Positions 5,047-31,930 of a DNA stretch of 33,443 nucleotides are shown here, piece after piece (the stretch's first letter is position 1; every line of letters starts with the position of its first letter). The notes beneath the pieces were generated by a model. It searched no databases. It was not told the DNA's origin and saw only the letters and a list, made by a program, of their open reading frames with translations. Made by a program: the position numbers and the translations under genes. The DNA is from Candidatus Cloacimonadota bacterium (GTDB lineage Bacteria; Cloacimonadota; Cloacimonadia; Cloacimonadales; Cloacimonadaceae): positions 1 through 33,443 of the forward strand of contig JAKLEY010000004.1 of the NCBI GenBank assembly GCA_022711455.1. The letters run 5' to 3'.

Positions 5047-5190
5047 GACGAATACTCGGTTTGTGGGGCTGAAGTCGAGCCCGCGCTTGAGTTTAGTAAG
5101 AACTCACAAACTACACAGTAGCGAAGTAGTCCACGGAGCACCTTCAAACCTAATTTAGTGCGGTCACAACTCCAGCGGAACAGGCGCAGC
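5047..5190. other. non-coding stretch with no recognised feature
   Basis: This is the remainder of the 400-base convergent spacer between the gene ending at 4812 and the gene ending at 5212. A minus-strand open frame runs through it (4629-5147), but it has no family signal and covers the repeat cluster, so I treat it as chance. Only minor 5-bp inverted repeats are visible. Confidence 0.5.
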
Positions 5191-5218
5191 TTAATTCTTA
5201 ATTATTAATTCTTAATTT
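5191..5218 (+). repeat. four-unit heptamer array TTAATTN
   Basis: The units are TTAATTC (5191), TTAATTA (5198), TTAATTC (5205) and TTAATTT (5212). The last unit contains the TAA stop codon of the minus-strand radical SAM gene. No facing inverted array is visible here, unlike the arrays near 15681, 18343 and 31376. Confidence 0.75.
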
Positions 5219-6615
5219 TTCTTTAAGGCTTGGTCGAAAGTCTTTCCCAGAAATCTGGTTTTGATCAGGGCCCACAATCCGGCAGCGATGGTGGATGGGT
5301 TCATTGCCTTGCTGCGGAAGCTTTTATAGAGCATGGGGATCAAGCGCCAGCCCTTGCTGAGATAGACTCTCAGGTAGGCTTTGGGGAGGTAGGCTTCCAG
5401 GGCTTTGGGGCTCATGCCAAGGGGTTGATACACGCAGTGCGCGGCATCGTAAAGTTCCCATTTGTAATGTAAAAGGCGTCCTTCAGACTTGATCTTGTTA
5501 TAGAGTTCCGTGCCCGGAAAGGGAGTCAGAATTGAGATCAGGACGTATCCCAGATGCAGGGACTGGAAAAAGCGGATATTCTGCTCGATATACCCGGGAG
5601 CGTCAAATTCATCTCCTGAACCCAGGATCATATACCAGTTGTGTGATATCTTATTGCGGTCCAGAATCTTGATAGCGGTCTTAATATCCTGCAGATTGAT
5701 CTTTTTGTGCATCCGTTCCAGGACTTCCGGGATGCCGCTTTCGATTCCGATGGAACACAGACTGCATCCGGCTTTGGACATCAAAGCCAGCAGTTCCGGA
5801 TGACGCACGATGCTATCGACCCGGCTCATGCAGTTCCACCTGAACTTGAGGCCCTCAGCGATGATCCGGTTGCAAAACTCAGTCACCCATGCAACATCCA
5901 CAGTCAGATTGTCATCATGAAACCAAAACTGCGTGAAGCCCCAGTCCAGGTAATTCCTGATATCTGCCAAAACAGCTTCGACCTTGCGTTGACGGTAGCT
6001 GCCTCCATAGAATGAGGAGATGGAACAGAAGGAGCAATGGAAGGGGCAGCCCCGGCTGGAAACGATCTTGGGAGAAAAGGTGAAGCCGGGAGCCAGCAAG
6101 TCTCTCGTGATCAGCGGCAGACCGTCCAGATCTTCCAGCAGCGCTATCTGCTCATCATTGTGATAGGTGCCGTCCCGGTAATAGACGATCCCCGGGATAG
6201 CGGGGAAGCTGTTGCCATGCGAAAGGCTGTCCAGAAGCCGCACAAAGACTTCCTCTCCCTCTCCGCGGCAGACATAGTCCACCCCTGTCTCTTCAATGAC
6301 TTCCTTATACATGAAGGTGGCATGGTGTCCGCCAATGATAGAGGGCAGTTCGGGATAAAGTTTTTTGCAGCTTTTCAGGAGCTCACGGGCAATGGGATAG
6401 GTGGCTGAAACGCATGATACTCCAAGGATATCCGGTTTGTAGGAATGAATGTATTTCCCGATGTCATGCTCATCCGCGATCACAACGGTGGTTCTGTGTC
6501 CGGCAGCTTTGGCAGCGGCAGCAACATAGAGCACACCCTGGAGCACCTGATTTCCCTTGCGCAGGCTTTCCAGTCCGCCGGTTTTGGCTGCAGGGGAGAC
6601 GAGCAGGATCTTCAG
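5212..6615 (-). CDS. B12-binding-domain radical SAM protein
   Basis: A 467-aa protein with the layout of the cobalamin-binding radical SAM family. It has an N-terminal Rossmann-like part (KILLVSPA, then DILGVSCVSATY and IIGGHHATF), then the 4Fe-4S/SAM motif CPFHCSFC with Cys at residues 190, 194 and 197 (codons at 6048-6046, 6036-6034 and 6027-6025). A barrel part follows with FWFHDDN and SIGIESG. The family performs methylations, ring formations and other radical chemistry on lipids, cofactors or natural products; the substrate cannot be read here. The first ATG/GTG/TTG start is GTG at 6546, but that would remove KILLVSPA and the first beta strand. I therefore prefer CTG at 6615, with AAGGGA upstream and a 4-nt CTGA overlap with rex. 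Last gene of the minus-strand operon. Confidence 0.85.
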   Translation of the reverse strand: MKILLVSPAAKTGGLESLRKGNQVLQGVLYVAAAAKAAGHRTTVVIADEHDIGKYIHSYKPDILGVSCVSATYPIARELLKSCKKLYPELPSIIGGHHATFMYKEVIEETGVDYVCRGEGEEVFVRLLDSLSHGNSFPAIPGIVYYRDGTYHNDEQIALLEDLDGLPLITRDLLAPGFTFSPKIVSSRGCPFHCSFCSISSFYGGSYRQRKVEAVLADIRNYLDWGFTQFWFHDDNLTVDVAWVTEFCNRIIAEGLKFRWNCMSRVDSIVRHPELLALMSKAGCSLCSIGIESGIPEVLERMHKKINLQDIKTAIKILDRNKISHNWYMILGSGDEFDAPGYIEQNIRFFQSLHLGYVLISILTPFPGTELYNKIKSEGRLLHYKWELYDAAHCVYQPLGMSPKALEAYLPKAYLRVYLSKGWRLIPMLYKSFRSKAMNPSTIAAGLWALIKTRFLGKTFDQALKKN

Positions 6616-15680: not shown

Positions 15681-15738
15681 GAGTGACGAGTGACAAGTAA
15701 CGAGTGACGGGTCTCTCGTCACTCGTCACTTGTCACTT
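15681..15738 (+). repeat. heptamer array with facing inverted array
   Basis: Four direct units GAGTGAC, GAGTGAC, AAGTAAC, GAGTGAC (15681-15708), a 9-nt spacer, then three inverted units GTCACTC, GTCACTT, GTCACTT (15718-15738). The arms form a hairpin of about 21 bp with one mismatch. It lies just upstream of the start region of the minus-strand operon and could act as an upstream boundary or terminator-like structure. Same design as 18343-18428 and 31376-31528, with a different unit. Confidence 0.8.
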
Positions 15739-17718: not shown

Positions 17719-18339
17719 ATGCAATACTCAGAAAAGGTCCTCGACCACTTCATGCACCCTCGCAATATCGGCAAGATGGAAAACCCTGATGCCAGTGCCA
17801 CCGAGGGCAGTCCCGCTTGCGGAGATCAGGTCACGGTCTACCTCAAGGTCGACGATAAAGACCTCACCATCAAAGACATCAGCTTCCTGTCCTATGGCTG
17901 TGCCTCCAATATAGCCACAGCTTCGATGATCACCGATATCGCCAAGGGCAAGACCCTCGAAGAAGCCAAAAAGATCACCTGGCGCGAAGCCATGGAAGCC
18001 CTGGACGGACTTCCTCCCGTGAAGGTGCATTGCTCTGTGCTGGCAGCAGATACGCTGCAAACTGCCATCTCCAATTATGAGATCGCGCATGGGCTCAAAG
18101 AGGTTCCGAACTTCAGCAAGGAGACCATCCTCGATGAGCTTAAGAAGATCATCTATCCTCAAGTCGGCGAAGACATTGTCTCCCTGAAGATGGTAAAATA
18201 CGTGGGCTTTACGGATGGCGAAGTGCTGATCGATCTCAATATCCCCTCCTTTGACCAATGGCGCGGCAATATTGCCGATGAGATCAGGGAGCATCTGGAA
18301 AAGTATCCGGAAGTGAAGGATATTCAGATCAATATGTAA
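17719..18339 (+). CDS. iscU: FeS scaffold IscU fused to a MIP18/DUF59 domain
   Basis: A 206-aa protein. Residues 1-125 are IscU/NifU-N, with the three cluster ligands Cys34 (SPACGD), Cys61 (YGCASN) and Cys105 (VKVHCS), plus Asp36, which permits cluster release. Residues about 130-206 (ILDELKKIIYPQVGEDIVSL, then GEVLIDLNIPS) match the MIP18/DUF59 fold found in SufT and FeS carrier proteins. This differs from the NifU C-terminal thioredoxin-like domain because there is no CxxC. Scaffold and cluster-transfer activities may therefore sit in one chain. AGGAG lies inside the preceding gene, and the ATG directly follows the desulfurase stop. Confidence 0.9.
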   Translation: MQYSEKVLDHFMHPRNIGKMENPDASATEGSPACGDQVTVYLKVDDKDLTIKDISFLSYGCASNIATASMITDIAKGKTLEEAKKITWREAMEALDGLPPVKVHCSVLAADTLQTAISNYEIAHGLKEVPNFSKETILDELKKIIYPQVGEDIVSLKMVKYVGFTDGEVLIDLNIPSFDQWRGNIADEIREHLEKYPEVKDIQINM

Positions 18340-18342
18340 AAA

Positions 18343-18428
18343 AATTAGCAGATTAGCGGATTAACGGATTAGTTTTGCTCCGCTGCAGGCAGCAGCCGCT
18401 AATCTGCTAATCCGTTAATTTGTTAATC
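18343..18428 (+). repeat. octamer array with facing inverted array
   Basis: Four direct octamers AATTAGCA, GATTAGCG, GATTAACG, GATTAGTT (18343-18374), then four inverted octamers CGCTAATC, TGCTAATC, CGTTAATT, TGTTAATC (18397-18428). The outer 16 bases of the direct arm pair at 15 of 16 positions with 18397-18412. A small GCTGC/GCAGC hairpin lies between. It starts 4 nt after the iscU stop codon and may end or protect that transcript. Confidence 0.8.
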
Positions 18429-18530
18429 TTGAGATCACTTATTCCTTGACTATATCCCCAATCCCTCCAGAATTGCATACTGGAAAAATGGGGGTTATTT
18501 ATCCCCGGAATCAGCTGTTTAGGAGAAACA

Positions 18531-29171: not shown

Positions 29172-30029
29172 ATGAAGCGAATTGGACTCTTTCTATTGAC
29201 CAATCTTTTGGTCATCATCACGATCTCGGTGATCTTGCAGCTGACCGGGATCAACATCGCTCAGAACTCAGGTTTGCTGATGTTTTGCGCGCTCTTTGGT
29301 TTTGGCGGAGCCTTTATCTCTTTGCTGCTCTCCAAGACCATGGCAAAATTCAGCTACAAGATCCAGATGATCGACCGCACAAACGCCAGCGGCAGATATC
29401 TGACCCTTTATGACAACATCGAAAAGATGGCCGCGCATCTGGGGATCAAAACTCCCCAGGTGGGGATCTATCCCTCTCCGGATGTGAATGCCTTTGCCAC
29501 CGGAGCCTCTGCCAACAAGGCTTTGATCGCCTTTTCCTCTGCCATTGTGGAGAGGCTGGAAGATGACGAATTGGCAGCAGTCGCGGGGCACGAACTGAGC
29601 CATGTAACAAACGGAGATATGGTCACCATGACCCTCTTGACGGGGGTTGCCAATACCTTTGTGATGTTTTTCGCGCGCATCGTTGCCGGGATCCTTTCCG
29701 GCAGCAGCAGAGACAACCGGGGGCTTGGAACCATGGGCTATTATGCCATTGTGATGATCCTCGAGAATGTGATGATGATGCTGGCCTATATCCCGATCTC
29801 AGCCTTTTCCAGATGGCGTGAATTTGGCGCGGATGAAGGCGCAGCCAGGATGACAACCGCCGGGCCCATGATCGATGCCCTGCTCAAGATCGACCGCAAC
29901 TACCAGCCGGTGGCAGACAACAAAGATTCCTTTGCCATGGCCAAGATCGGAGGCCGCAAACGGGTTTCGCTGTTTGCGACGCATCCCTCGATCGAAGCGC
30001 GGGTCGAACGCTTGAAGAAGCTGGCATGA
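29172..30029 (+). CDS. htpX: membrane zinc metalloprotease HtpX (M48)
   Basis: Inner-membrane protease that clears misfolded membrane proteins; 285 aa, the family length. Two N-terminal transmembrane helices (LFLLTNLLVIITISVILQL and the AFISLLL region) are followed by the zinc motif HELSH (His140-His144), then two more hydrophobic stretches near 150-170 and 195-215. FSRWREFGADEGAA carries the third zinc ligand Glu. The frame stays open upstream to 29055, inside the lyase gene, but ATG 29172 matches family starts (MKRIGLF). TAGGAG, made from the lyase stop codon, lies six bases before it. It overlaps rlmD by ATGA. Confidence 0.95.
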   Translation: MKRIGLFLLTNLLVIITISVILQLTGINIAQNSGLLMFCALFGFGGAFISLLLSKTMAKFSYKIQMIDRTNASGRYLTLYDNIEKMAAHLGIKTPQVGIYPSPDVNAFATGASANKALIAFSSAIVERLEDDELAAVAGHELSHVTNGDMVTMTLLTGVANTFVMFFARIVAGILSGSSRDNRGLGTMGYYAIVMILENVMMMLAYIPISAFSRWREFGADEGAARMTTAGPMIDALLKIDRNYQPVADNKDSFAMAKIGGRKRVSLFATHPSIEARVERLKKLA

Positions 30030-31381
30030 GAGAGCTTAAAGGTCTCAAAGTAGAAAAGATAGCCCTTCACGGCTACGGAATCGCGCATAGTGCCAACCGC
30101 ACCATCTTCGTCCCCTACACCGTTCCCGGAGATGTGGTCGATATCCACCTCACGGAGCAGCGTAAGGACATCGCCTTTGGCAGCGTCACCCGCTATGTCT
30201 CACGTCCGGATTTTACAATCAAACCGAGCTGCGACGCCTTTGGCCCCAAAGCTCAGTGCGGAGGTTGCGACTGGCTGATGACGCCCTATGCCAAACAGCT
30301 GGAATGGAAACAGGAACTGATCCATGGCGTCTTTGACACGGTGATCGATCCCCATTTGATCCAGCCCATAGTCCCTTCCCCGCAGGAGACCGGATACCGC
30401 AACAAAGCGTTCTTCCCGGTCTCTTCACGCAAGGGACGGCTGATCTTTGGCATGTATCAAAGCTGGACCCACAGCGTGGTTCCCCACCGAGCCTGCCAGA
30501 TCCAGATGCCGATCTTCGACGTGATCGCGCAGCGCATCATCATGCTGGCTCAGAAGGCAGGAACTCAGGCTTATCAGGAAGACAGCCATGGCGGAAACCT
30601 GCGTCAGATCGGCTTCCGCAGCAATTCGGACGGCTCTCAGATCGTGGTTGTCCTGGTCACTAAAAGCTCCAAGCTACCCTTTACCCAGCTCCTGGTGAAG
30701 CATCTGAATACAGAATTTCCCCAGATCACCGGTATCGTCCAAAACATCCAGAGACGGCGCACCAACGTCATCCTGGGAGACGAGGACAAGCTGCTCTTTG
30801 GCAAGCCCTGGATCACAGAAGATATCCGGGGTCTCAAGTTTCAGGTGCACTATAAAAGCTTTCTGCAAGTGAATTCCGGCACCATGGATCTGATCGGCAA
30901 ACGCCTGGCTCTGATTCTGGGTTCCGGCAAACGCGTGATCGATGCCTACAGCGGGATCGGGAGCATCGGACTGGGTCTTGCGGCTGCCTGCAAACAACTC
31001 ACTCTGATCGAGGAAAACCCTCAGGCAGTGGAAGACGCGCGTCTAAACGCGGAAGCGAACAAGATCACGAATGTCTCTTTCTACACAGGAAGGACCGAGA
31101 TCGAACTGGGCAAGCTTGCCCACGTCAGAAGCGGAGATAAAGCCCGGTTTGAAAGTATTATAGTTGATCCTCCCAGGGCCGGACTCGATCCGGAAGTGAT
31201 CAAAGCCATAGCTCAGGCCAATCTGAACCAGGTGATCTACCTCAGCTGCAACCCCATGACTCTGGCGCGGGATATCAAGCTGCTCTCTGCCAAAGGCTAT
31301 CAAGTCAAGAGTTTACAACCCTTCGACATGTTCCCCCAGACCTGGCATATTGAGACTTTGGTGGAACTGGTCAAAGAGTAA
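30026..31381 (+). CDS. rlmD: 23S rRNA uracil-5-methyltransferase, RlmD/TrmA family
   Basis: SAM-dependent methylation of a uridine in rRNA (or tRNA, since RlmC, RlmD and TrmA are close). A TRAM domain spans residues 1-60. The FeS cluster site is Cys69, Cys78, Cys81 (SCDAF...CGGC) and Cys near 158 (PHRAC). The SAM-binding region VIDAYSGIGSIGLGLA is followed by IVDPPRAGLD, the nucleophile Cys408 in YLSCNP, and the general-base Glu in TWHIETL. At 451 aa it is normal in length. The intact FeS cysteines favour RlmD/RlmC over TrmA. The stop codon TAA sits inside the first heptamer of the array at 31376, so the repeat abuts or has shaped the gene's end. Confidence 0.9.
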   Translation: MRELKGLKVEKIALHGYGIAHSANRTIFVPYTVPGDVVDIHLTEQRKDIAFGSVTRYVSRPDFTIKPSCDAFGPKAQCGGCDWLMTPYAKQLEWKQELIHGVFDTVIDPHLIQPIVPSPQETGYRNKAFFPVSSRKGRLIFGMYQSWTHSVVPHRACQIQMPIFDVIAQRIIMLAQKAGTQAYQEDSHGGNLRQIGFRSNSDGSQIVVVLVTKSSKLPFTQLLVKHLNTEFPQITGIVQNIQRRRTNVILGDEDKLLFGKPWITEDIRGLKFQVHYKSFLQVNSGTMDLIGKRLALILGSGKRVIDAYSGIGSIGLGLAAACKQLTLIEENPQAVEDARLNAEANKITNVSFYTGRTEIELGKLAHVRSGDKARFESIIVDPPRAGLDPEVIKAIAQANLNQVIYLSCNPMTLARDIKLLSAKGYQVKSLQPFDMFPQTWHIETLVELVKE

Positions 31382-31528
31382 TGAGTGATGAGTAATGAGT
31401 GATGAGTGCTGACGCTCGTGGAAGAACTAACATCTATGATCGCTAAATTGATCAGAAGTTTCGGACCCTGCCTGCACCCTCCGAAGCGAGCGAAGCACGC
31501 ATTACTCATAACTCATTACTCATCACTC
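31376..31528 (+). repeat. heptamer arrays facing each other across ~90 bp
   Basis: Left: GAGTAAT, GAGTGAT, GAGTAAT, GAGTGAT, GAGTGCT (31376-31410). Right, inverted: ATTACTC, ATAACTC, ATTACTC, ATCACTC (31501-31528). The left array holds the rlmD stop codon; the right array is translated as part of the next gene. The unit differs from GAGTGAC at 15681 by one base, so the two loci are likely related. The shape recalls a small element with terminal inverted repeats, but no target duplication is visible. Confidence 0.8.
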
Positions 31529-31930
31529 CTATTAACCCTCCTCCTTATAAGCTCCTGCACCCTTACCGAGCCCAACTACAGCCCTGAAAACCAGATCAAA
31601 AACAGTCTTTATGATATCAGCAGGTGGTTTGACAATAAAAATTTGAATCCGATCCTGGATCTGGTGCACGAGGATTATCTTCATAACGGAATGACCAAGT
31701 GGAACTTCCGTGAGCTCTGGCAGGACCGGATGGGACAGTATGCGCTGCTGGATATCAGCGCTATTCAGTTGACTTTTAACGGGGATTATGCCACGGTCAA
31801 GATGGTGCTGGATTTCACTGATCCGGAGGGAAACCTCACTCTCAACGAGCCCTGGGACAGCGGGGACCTCAGCTATTTCTATTATAACGGGAATTCCTGG
31901 GTGATCTGCGGCAACCAATTTGTCCCTTAA
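31436..31930 (+). CDS. small putative lipoprotein, NTF2-like
   Basis: About 164 aa from ATG 31436. A hydrophobic stretch (LLLTLLLIS) runs into the lipobox ISSC, so the mature protein would be lipid-anchored at Cys. The mature ~125 residues (SLYDISRWFDNKN, ILDLVHEDYLHNG, ending WVICGNQFVP) have the helix-then-sheet pattern of small NTF2/SnoaL-like folds, which often bind a ligand; this is a resemblance only. The start is uncertain: GTG 31406, ATG 31436 and TTG 31448 are all in frame and none has a good ribosome-binding site. Residues ALLITHYSSLL before the lipobox are encoded by the inverted heptamer array, so the repeat supplies part of the signal peptide. Confidence 0.65.
   Translation: MIAKLIRSFGPCLHPPKRAKHALLITHYSSLLLTLLLISSCTLTEPNYSPENQIKNSLYDISRWFDNKNLNPILDLVHEDYLHNGMTKWNFRELWQDRMGQYALLDISAIQLTFNGDYATVKMVLDFTDPEGNLTLNEPWDSGDLSYFYYNGNSWVICGNQFVP

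Follow-up and report, generated by a model that had tools for sequence, protein, structure and literature searches.

An inverted-repeat element of heptamer arrays at the N-terminus of a predicted Cloacimonadota lipoprotein

We propose, with a probability of roughly two in three, that a polar inverted-repeat element landed at the rlmD stop codon, displacing the start of the adjoining predicted lipoprotein gene, and that the reverse array of this element connected that gene with a new start. The element lies in the window, by which we mean the whole stretch of DNA analysed, namely the entire 33,443-bp contig C193 of a 2.24-Mb Cloacimonadota draft genome (258 contigs, 88% complete); its features and those of the two genes that flank it are collected in Table 1. 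The rlmD product matches PF05958 (E=3.5e-28) and TRAM in Pfam, and rlmD is found upstream of the lipoprotein gene in the orthologous loci as well. The lipoprotein itself has no Pfam match at E 0.001. The locus illustrates concretely how the start of an exported protein may arise from non-coding repeat DNA.

Table 1. Positions of the features at the rlmD-lipoprotein junction, numbered along the window
Feature	Position	Strand	Basis or remark
rlmD	30026..31381	+	ORF; RNA (uracil-5-)-methyltransferase family; label from the original prediction
Left heptamer array, forward sense, GAGTAAT/GAGTGAT	31376..31407	+	Stop codons in 3/3 frames; TRF, inverted-repeat search
Tail GTGCTGACGCTC	31406..31417	+	Directly 3' of left array
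Element loop	31418..31486	+	Single open frame, that of the lipoprotein
Likeliest lipoprotein start codon, ATG	31436..31438	+	Preferred on inference over GTG 31406, GTG 31418 and TTG 31448
Inverted, diverged tail copy CGAGCGAAGCAC	31487..31498	+	Sequence, plus pairing in the fold; precedes right array
Right heptamer array, reverse sense	31501..31528 (TRF: 31500-31528)	+	LLITHYSSL in lipoprotein frame; open in 2/3 frames
Hydrophobic core and lipobox, LLTLLLISSC	31529..31558	+	Translation; by-eye judgement
Predicted lipoprotein, function not assigned	31436..31930	+	174-aa frame; relatives throughout the order

What kind of repeat is this? TRF reports both arrays with period 14 (score 64 for 31376-31407 and 51 for 31500-31528) and calls period 7 for both as well. 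The arms 31376-31410 and 31494-31528 are inverted copies of one another, 86% complementary over 35 nt with a 25-nt stretch at 96%, and the two facing arrays with their 12-nt tails make up one inverted-repeat element of 153 bp (31376-31528). The segment 31370-31540 is predicted to fold as a long hairpin of -70.9 kcal/mol, whereas 200 shuffles average -35.3 (sd 4.0), which gives z -9.0; the tails of both arms also pair in this fold. The tail sequence of the left arm occurs at eight places in 514 kb, the window included, where 0.1 would be expected, and each occurrence is directly 3' of an array. The arm complementarity, the TRF scores and the Markov shuffles described below lead us to reject the array pair as a chance product. 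The original prediction had spoken of a mobile or expanding repeat; the repeat is indeed found at the N-terminus, and its unit is an inverted-repeat element with tails, which is more than an expanding microsatellite. In the manner of a MITE, this element has inverted repeats at both ends and a short interior that holds no transposase gene.

The loop matches itself alone in a search of its own genome, and conserved cargo in the loop was rejected on this ground; the 18 nt of loop that precede ATG 31436 are unlike the sequence found after other tails. No target-site duplication is visible by eye at 31376/31528, where there is no same-species empty site for comparison. A Y1_Tnp search of the genome returned one match above the cut-off (contig C213) and one below (contig C182), and the C213 sequence (L113) contained no array of period 7, 8 or 11. 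With one Y1_Tnp gene above the cut-off and no demonstrated link between it and the arrays, a RAYT gains no support as mobiliser from this search. A chimeric contig at the repeat is unlikely because rlmD, the lipoprotein gene and the next gene are kept together in both same-genus relatives, G002 and G001.

How does the element enter the lipoprotein frame? The frame translates as MIAKLIRSFGPCLHPPKRAKHALLITHYSSLLLTLLLISSC..., and the translation agrees with the claim that the inverted heptamers encode LLITHYSSL just before the hydrophobic core and the lipobox ISSC, whose Cys codon is 31556-31558. The opposite array likewise lies over the rlmD stop as had been claimed, with TAA 31379-31381 inside it. 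In the forward sense the array has stops in all three frames and ends an upstream frame in any phase. In the reverse sense no frame is closed by ATCACTC and ATTACTC units, and an ATAACTC unit closes one. Since a perfect ATCACTC array yields the identical seven-residue cycle in every frame, a repeat of this type can join frames almost anywhere. Only the lipoprotein's frame is open among the three that cross the loop. The choice of start is ambiguous, as was anticipated: GTG 31406, GTG 31418, ATG 31436 and TTG 31448 are all in frame, and the next candidate, TTG 31643, is past the lipobox. We regard ATG 31436 as the probable start; the nearest purine-rich stretch to it is, by eye, far away, and our home-made gene caller placed the start at 31643. 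A start downstream of the array was sought in the sequence, and the frame holds no ATG, GTG or TTG between 31448 and 31643. Any product that bears the lipobox would therefore include the array, barring an unusual start codon.

The features of a signal peptide are present by eye, with a positively charged n-region KRAKH, a core LLLTLLL and the lipobox, and on these features we predict that the product is exported and lipidated. The lipobox Cys is kept in 11 of 11 aligned proteins, which suggests that export of the lipoprotein is still under selection. We also note that the left array contains overlapping TAATG and TGATG stop-start motifs, and that over 31379-31446 a chain of mini-frames could, by termination-reinitiation, bring ribosomes from rlmD near ATG 31436.

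Do orthologues carry the repeat? The lipoprotein has matches in 80 of the 97 genomes searched, its own included, and upstream regions were compared at 29 orthologous loci, all from other genomes. A heptamer array within 260 nt upstream is present in none of these loci, and a LITH/THYS-like motif is absent from all 29 upstream regions in each of the three frames; thus none of the orthologues compared retains the same N-terminal residues without a repeat. Alignments to the 174-aa frame begin at residue 40-42 in 19 loci, at residue 38-42 in 23, and at residue 24-36 in six, and the array ends at residue 41, so lipoprotein homology begins at about the array end. The absence of the array from these orthologues, this onset of homology and the lack of an in-frame ATG, GTG or TTG between array and lipobox support the original prediction that a repeat created or replaced the N-terminus of a predicted exported protein.

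The orthologous junctions are compact. Of the 29 loci, 12 show a 4-nt overlap of the lipoprotein start with the rlmD stop, and 21 have the start within -4 to +6 nt of that stop; the leaders are 15-28 residues long in 27 loci, with 32 residues given for L047; the start-calling rule found no start for L049 and chose a far-upstream ATG for L025 and L047. The distance from the rlmD stop to the lipobox Cys is 174 nt in the window, 23-96 nt in 28 of the 29 loci, and 228 nt in L045. Among the same-genus relatives it is 44 nt in G002 and 75 nt in G001, the latter genome being weak support with its 6% contamination and with a locus (L134) whose rows in the peptidase comparisons described below are identical to those of a G040 locus (L133), an identity that itself suggests a contaminated G001 draft. 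Excision of 31382-31528 would leave 27 nt before the Cys, shorter than in 28 of the 29 orthologues, so the old leader would have been partly lost or would now sit in the loop. With the closest relatives at 48-52% identity across the matched part of the protein, and with no same-species empty site, we infer the old rlmD-lipoprotein junction from these loci; a contig scan with the lipoprotein for a same-species strain lacking the element, a scan that may omit the genome itself, returned no relative. Two of the orthologous loci have repeats or repeat-like sequence of their own. In L045 (G063) another, repeat-like spacer separates rlmD from the lipoprotein gene and an ATG leader is retained, and in L036 (G015) the hydrophobic core of the lipoprotein (LALALALA) is itself a CCTGGC hexamer repeat.

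We propose that the element of about 153 bp, each arm of which consists of about four heptamers and a 12-nt tail, entered at the rlmD stop codon, a junction at which, in most of the relatives compared, the following gene has its start overlapping that stop or very close to it. The left arm would now provide the rlmD stop, and the insertion would have severed the lipoprotein gene from its old start. With few or no stops in the reverse arm, the gene could then join a start inside the element, most plausibly ATG 31436; provided that the loop is open, a start within it would connect to the downstream frame. The new n-region (MIAKLIRSFGPCLHPPKRAKH) would thus precede the hydrophobic core and the lipobox. 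Since a signal peptide mainly needs a basic stretch and a hydrophobic core, exported proteins are the likely survivors of such an event, and the tolerance of signal peptides for variation may be the reason why both cases described here are predicted exported proteins. A more general proposal, which we consider doubtful at present, is that the mobile inverted-repeat element may act as a portable start-and-leader cassette at stop/start overlaps. One arm would end the upstream gene, and the other, nearly stop-free arm would give an exported protein a new start codon, an n-region and perhaps part of the core, with export kept.

A second case is found in contig C13, in a gene for a clostripain-family (C11) peptidase (PF03415, E = 1.3e-41) that is unrelated to the lipoprotein. 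The upstream gene, which we take to be buk, ends in ..EYPY-stop and is followed by an array with the same tail as the left arm in the window, and then by an ATG in the loop. This ATG (10350) stands 18 nt after GCTGACGCTC, a spacing equal to that in the window, and the 18 nt between tail and ATG have 5 of 18 positions in common at the two loci. Downstream of the ATG are reverse arrays of two kinds and then LLLLTLLLLSPLGA, with the core LLLTLLLLS. The C13 loop beside the tail resembles, up to the ATG, the sequence that follows other tails (by-eye consensus AA.TCG.GGTTTACGGAC). The C11 query matches 47 of 48 genomes of the family, its own included, some of them in the C-terminal part alone. Of 29 relatives' loci, 27 align from residue 58-67 onwards (of 623) and the remaining two from residues 41 and 86; the array ends at residue 65. 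Most of the relatives' C11 loci have ordinary short leaders, one locus being masked and one cut. The end motif of the upstream gene is near the C11 gene in 18 of 30 loci, its own included, the motif search having missed 12, and a chimeric contig at C13 is for this reason unlikely. Among the 17 relatives' loci in which the upstream end motif was found, seven have a TTG that overlaps the upstream stop in the C11 frame. At the same junction in L131 (G002) we observe another tandem repeat, with repeated AATAAGTG/AACAAGTG-like units before the C11 ATG.

The N-terminus of the lipoprotein can also be explained without the insertion of a single element. Two solo arrays might have inserted around a retained native start, the left one 3' of the rlmD stop and the right one within the signal peptide and in frame. 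MIAKLIRSFG.. would then be the original n-region, and the protein would have gained just some 20 residues. Facing pairs number just 19 among 93 seven-mer arrays and many arrays stand alone, MIAKLIRSFG is like an ordinary n-region and loosely similar to MKIQKLRHWCLFG of G001, and the loop is single-copy in the genome and unlike the sequence after other tails. However, the tails pair too, as the ends of one element would, and loop plus core come to about 91 nt from stop to Cys, which exceeds the distance in 27 of 29 orthologues. The loop in C13 also stands against solo insertions, since next to its tail it does resemble the sequence after other tails up to the ATG. We judge this account rather unlikely. 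An untranslated role for the arrays is in our view very unlikely. Under that account the arrays are spacer and the lipoprotein begins at an unusual codon 3' of them, and at other genes there are indeed arrays that stop immediately 5' of an ATG preceded by a ribosome-binding-like stretch (L085 877-906, L098 5810-5839 and L102 5245-5275). Against it stand the lack of in-frame start codons noted above and the single open frame of the loop; moreover, a start at 31643 would drop both the lipobox Cys and conserved sequence.

A further account concerns the leader itself. The stretch 31471-31555, which comprises basic residues and the core, might have been copied between the lipoprotein and C11 genes, either by array recombination or within the element, and the core would then be non-native. 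Both non-array flanks of the right array find their best match in 514 kb, both strands, at one place, beside the C11 array in C13. There 31471-31497 agrees at 20 of 27 positions, the runner-up reaching 18, and 31529-31555 agrees with the leader of the C11 peptidase (L088 10545) at 21 of 27, the runner-up reaching 19. A BLAST search of the whole genome gives 84% over 56 nt versus C13, and the other hits all end by query position 33, the array end being at 29. The observed scores were reached by a fraction of 0.0002 of 5000 mononucleotide shuffles for the outer flank and by none for the inner flank. The leader proteins are similarly alike, with PCLHPPKRAKHA..LLLTLLLISS in the lipoprotein and ACLCTPKRAQPP..LLLTLLLLSP in the C11 peptidase. 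Against copying we weigh the existence of two copies only, the similar codon use across hydrophobic cores, and the likeness of the outer flanks of arrays generally: 40 of 4278 pairs reach at least 20 of 27, and under that all-array rule the lipoprotein/C11 pair scores 22, a score that 26 pairs reach. From these comparisons it is likely that the leaders of the lipoprotein and the C11 peptidase share an origin, but flank likeness is common among arrays, and we consider it unlikely that the leader was copied between the two genes.

How widespread are the arrays? BLAST of the 171-bp query against its own genome gives 102 matches, and the non-self ones are confined to query positions 4-48 and 113-170, that is, to the arrays, the tails and a few extra bases. 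Among 48 other genomes of the family, one has a single weak match to the element. Arrays of period 7 number 96 in 41 stretches (517 kb), among them the window and a stretch masked throughout, and each of three first-order Markov shuffles contains one, taken as the masked N stretch. In 514 kb (39 stretches and the window) there are 95 arrays of period 7, 51 of period 8 and 22 of period 11, and 0, 1, 4, 3, 4 and 1 arrays of periods 4, 5, 6, 9, 10 and 12, respectively. The tandem arrays of this genome (L082-L120 and the window) are thus nearly all of period 7, 8 or 11, and many have about four copies. Several tandem 7-nt copies occur at many intergenic places, with 93 of the 95 period-7 arrays and 166 of the 168 arrays of periods 7, 8 and 11 being intergenic according to our home-made gene caller. 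The units are GAGTRAT, GAGTGAC, AATTAAG, ATTTAAG and a few others, and TAACTGA is not the unit here. With the all-N stretch L121 left out of the array counts and two CCCTAAT arrays unclassified, there are 93 classified period-7 arrays, of which 48 are GAGTRAT arrays; the surveyed contigs were mostly picked for GAGTRAT arrays, and the densities are not genome-wide.

The arrays are polar with respect to genes. The outer end is within 12 nt of a gene 3' end in 38 of the 93 classified arrays, and the inner end in one; for AATTAAG arrays, 15 of 17 are at 3' ends. Similarly, the outer end is within 40 nt of a called 5' end in 13 of the 93 arrays and the inner end in one, these distances being rough, as the genes surveyed were called with a codon model of our own making. 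Neighbouring arrays that share a gap are in the order F..R in 19 instances (11 of one unit family and 8 mixed), R..F in none, and in the same direction in 13; the 13 and the 8 mixed pairs weigh against our proposal. This polarity would be expected if the pairs are the ends of elements lying among tightly spaced genes. The single arrays call for a different explanation, and why arrays are so strictly polar at gene ends is a distinct question that can be tested.

Repeats of related form are known from other bacteria. REP/REPIN and BIME elements with RAYT transposases are short opposed repeat pairs between genes, as in the genome studied here, and REPs are palindromes, unlike the heptamer arrays. 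The palindromic elements of Rickettsia are not known to be built from heptamer arrays either. Porphyromonas gingivalis reportedly has a minisatellite inside a MITE, that is, tandem repeats within an inverted-repeat element, as here. The closest description that we found is of the TAACTGA heptamer repeats of marine Beggiatoaceae, some Cyanobacteria and Bacteroidetes (PMC4679880). Like the arrays described here, these are few-copy heptamer arrays and mostly intergenic. Forward, each of the three frames contains stops, and an array may lie across the stop codon of the preceding gene; in reverse the arrays are open, and 11 ORFs include them in translation, for the most part close to a protein terminus (PMC4679880). 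They differ in sequence, and many are just upstream of starts, whereas the outer ends of the arrays described here are at either gene end; a replaced signal peptide is not among the features described in the part of that source consulted (PMC4679880). The Rickettsia elements, the closest parallel for palindromic inserts in frame, are palindromes of about 150 bp fused in frame to unrelated genes of one genome, and in this they can be likened, by description, to the element reported here, but they are inside coding sequence, whereas 166 of 168 arrays are intergenic in our survey (PMC10969869). Geobacter metallireducens likewise has tandem heptanucleotides in families of four or five units at many places, both within and between genes; its units differ (GGGACCG and MTYCTGA) and are proposed to be regulatory RNA or binding sites, and N-terminal fusion is not among the features given in the accessible excerpt (PMC2700814). 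Our literature search, which included a Cloacimonadota-directed one and had most subscription papers outside its coverage, found no paper on a repeat-made or element-replaced signal peptide.

Finally, the relatives sampled have arrays of other sequence: 120 kb of G002 contain 7 of period 11, and 140 kb of G011 contain 7 of period 8 and 7 of period 11. Further arrays are found in the window itself. Opposed octamer arrays of the ATTAGCGG family (18344-18429) begin 5 nt past the stop codon, at 18339, of an apparently NifU-like gene. At 15681-15737, opposed GAGTGAC arrays that are nearly loopless lie between two divergent genes, and at 5190-5217 an AATTAAG array extends over the stop codon of a presumably radical-SAM-like gene on the minus strand (5212-6546).
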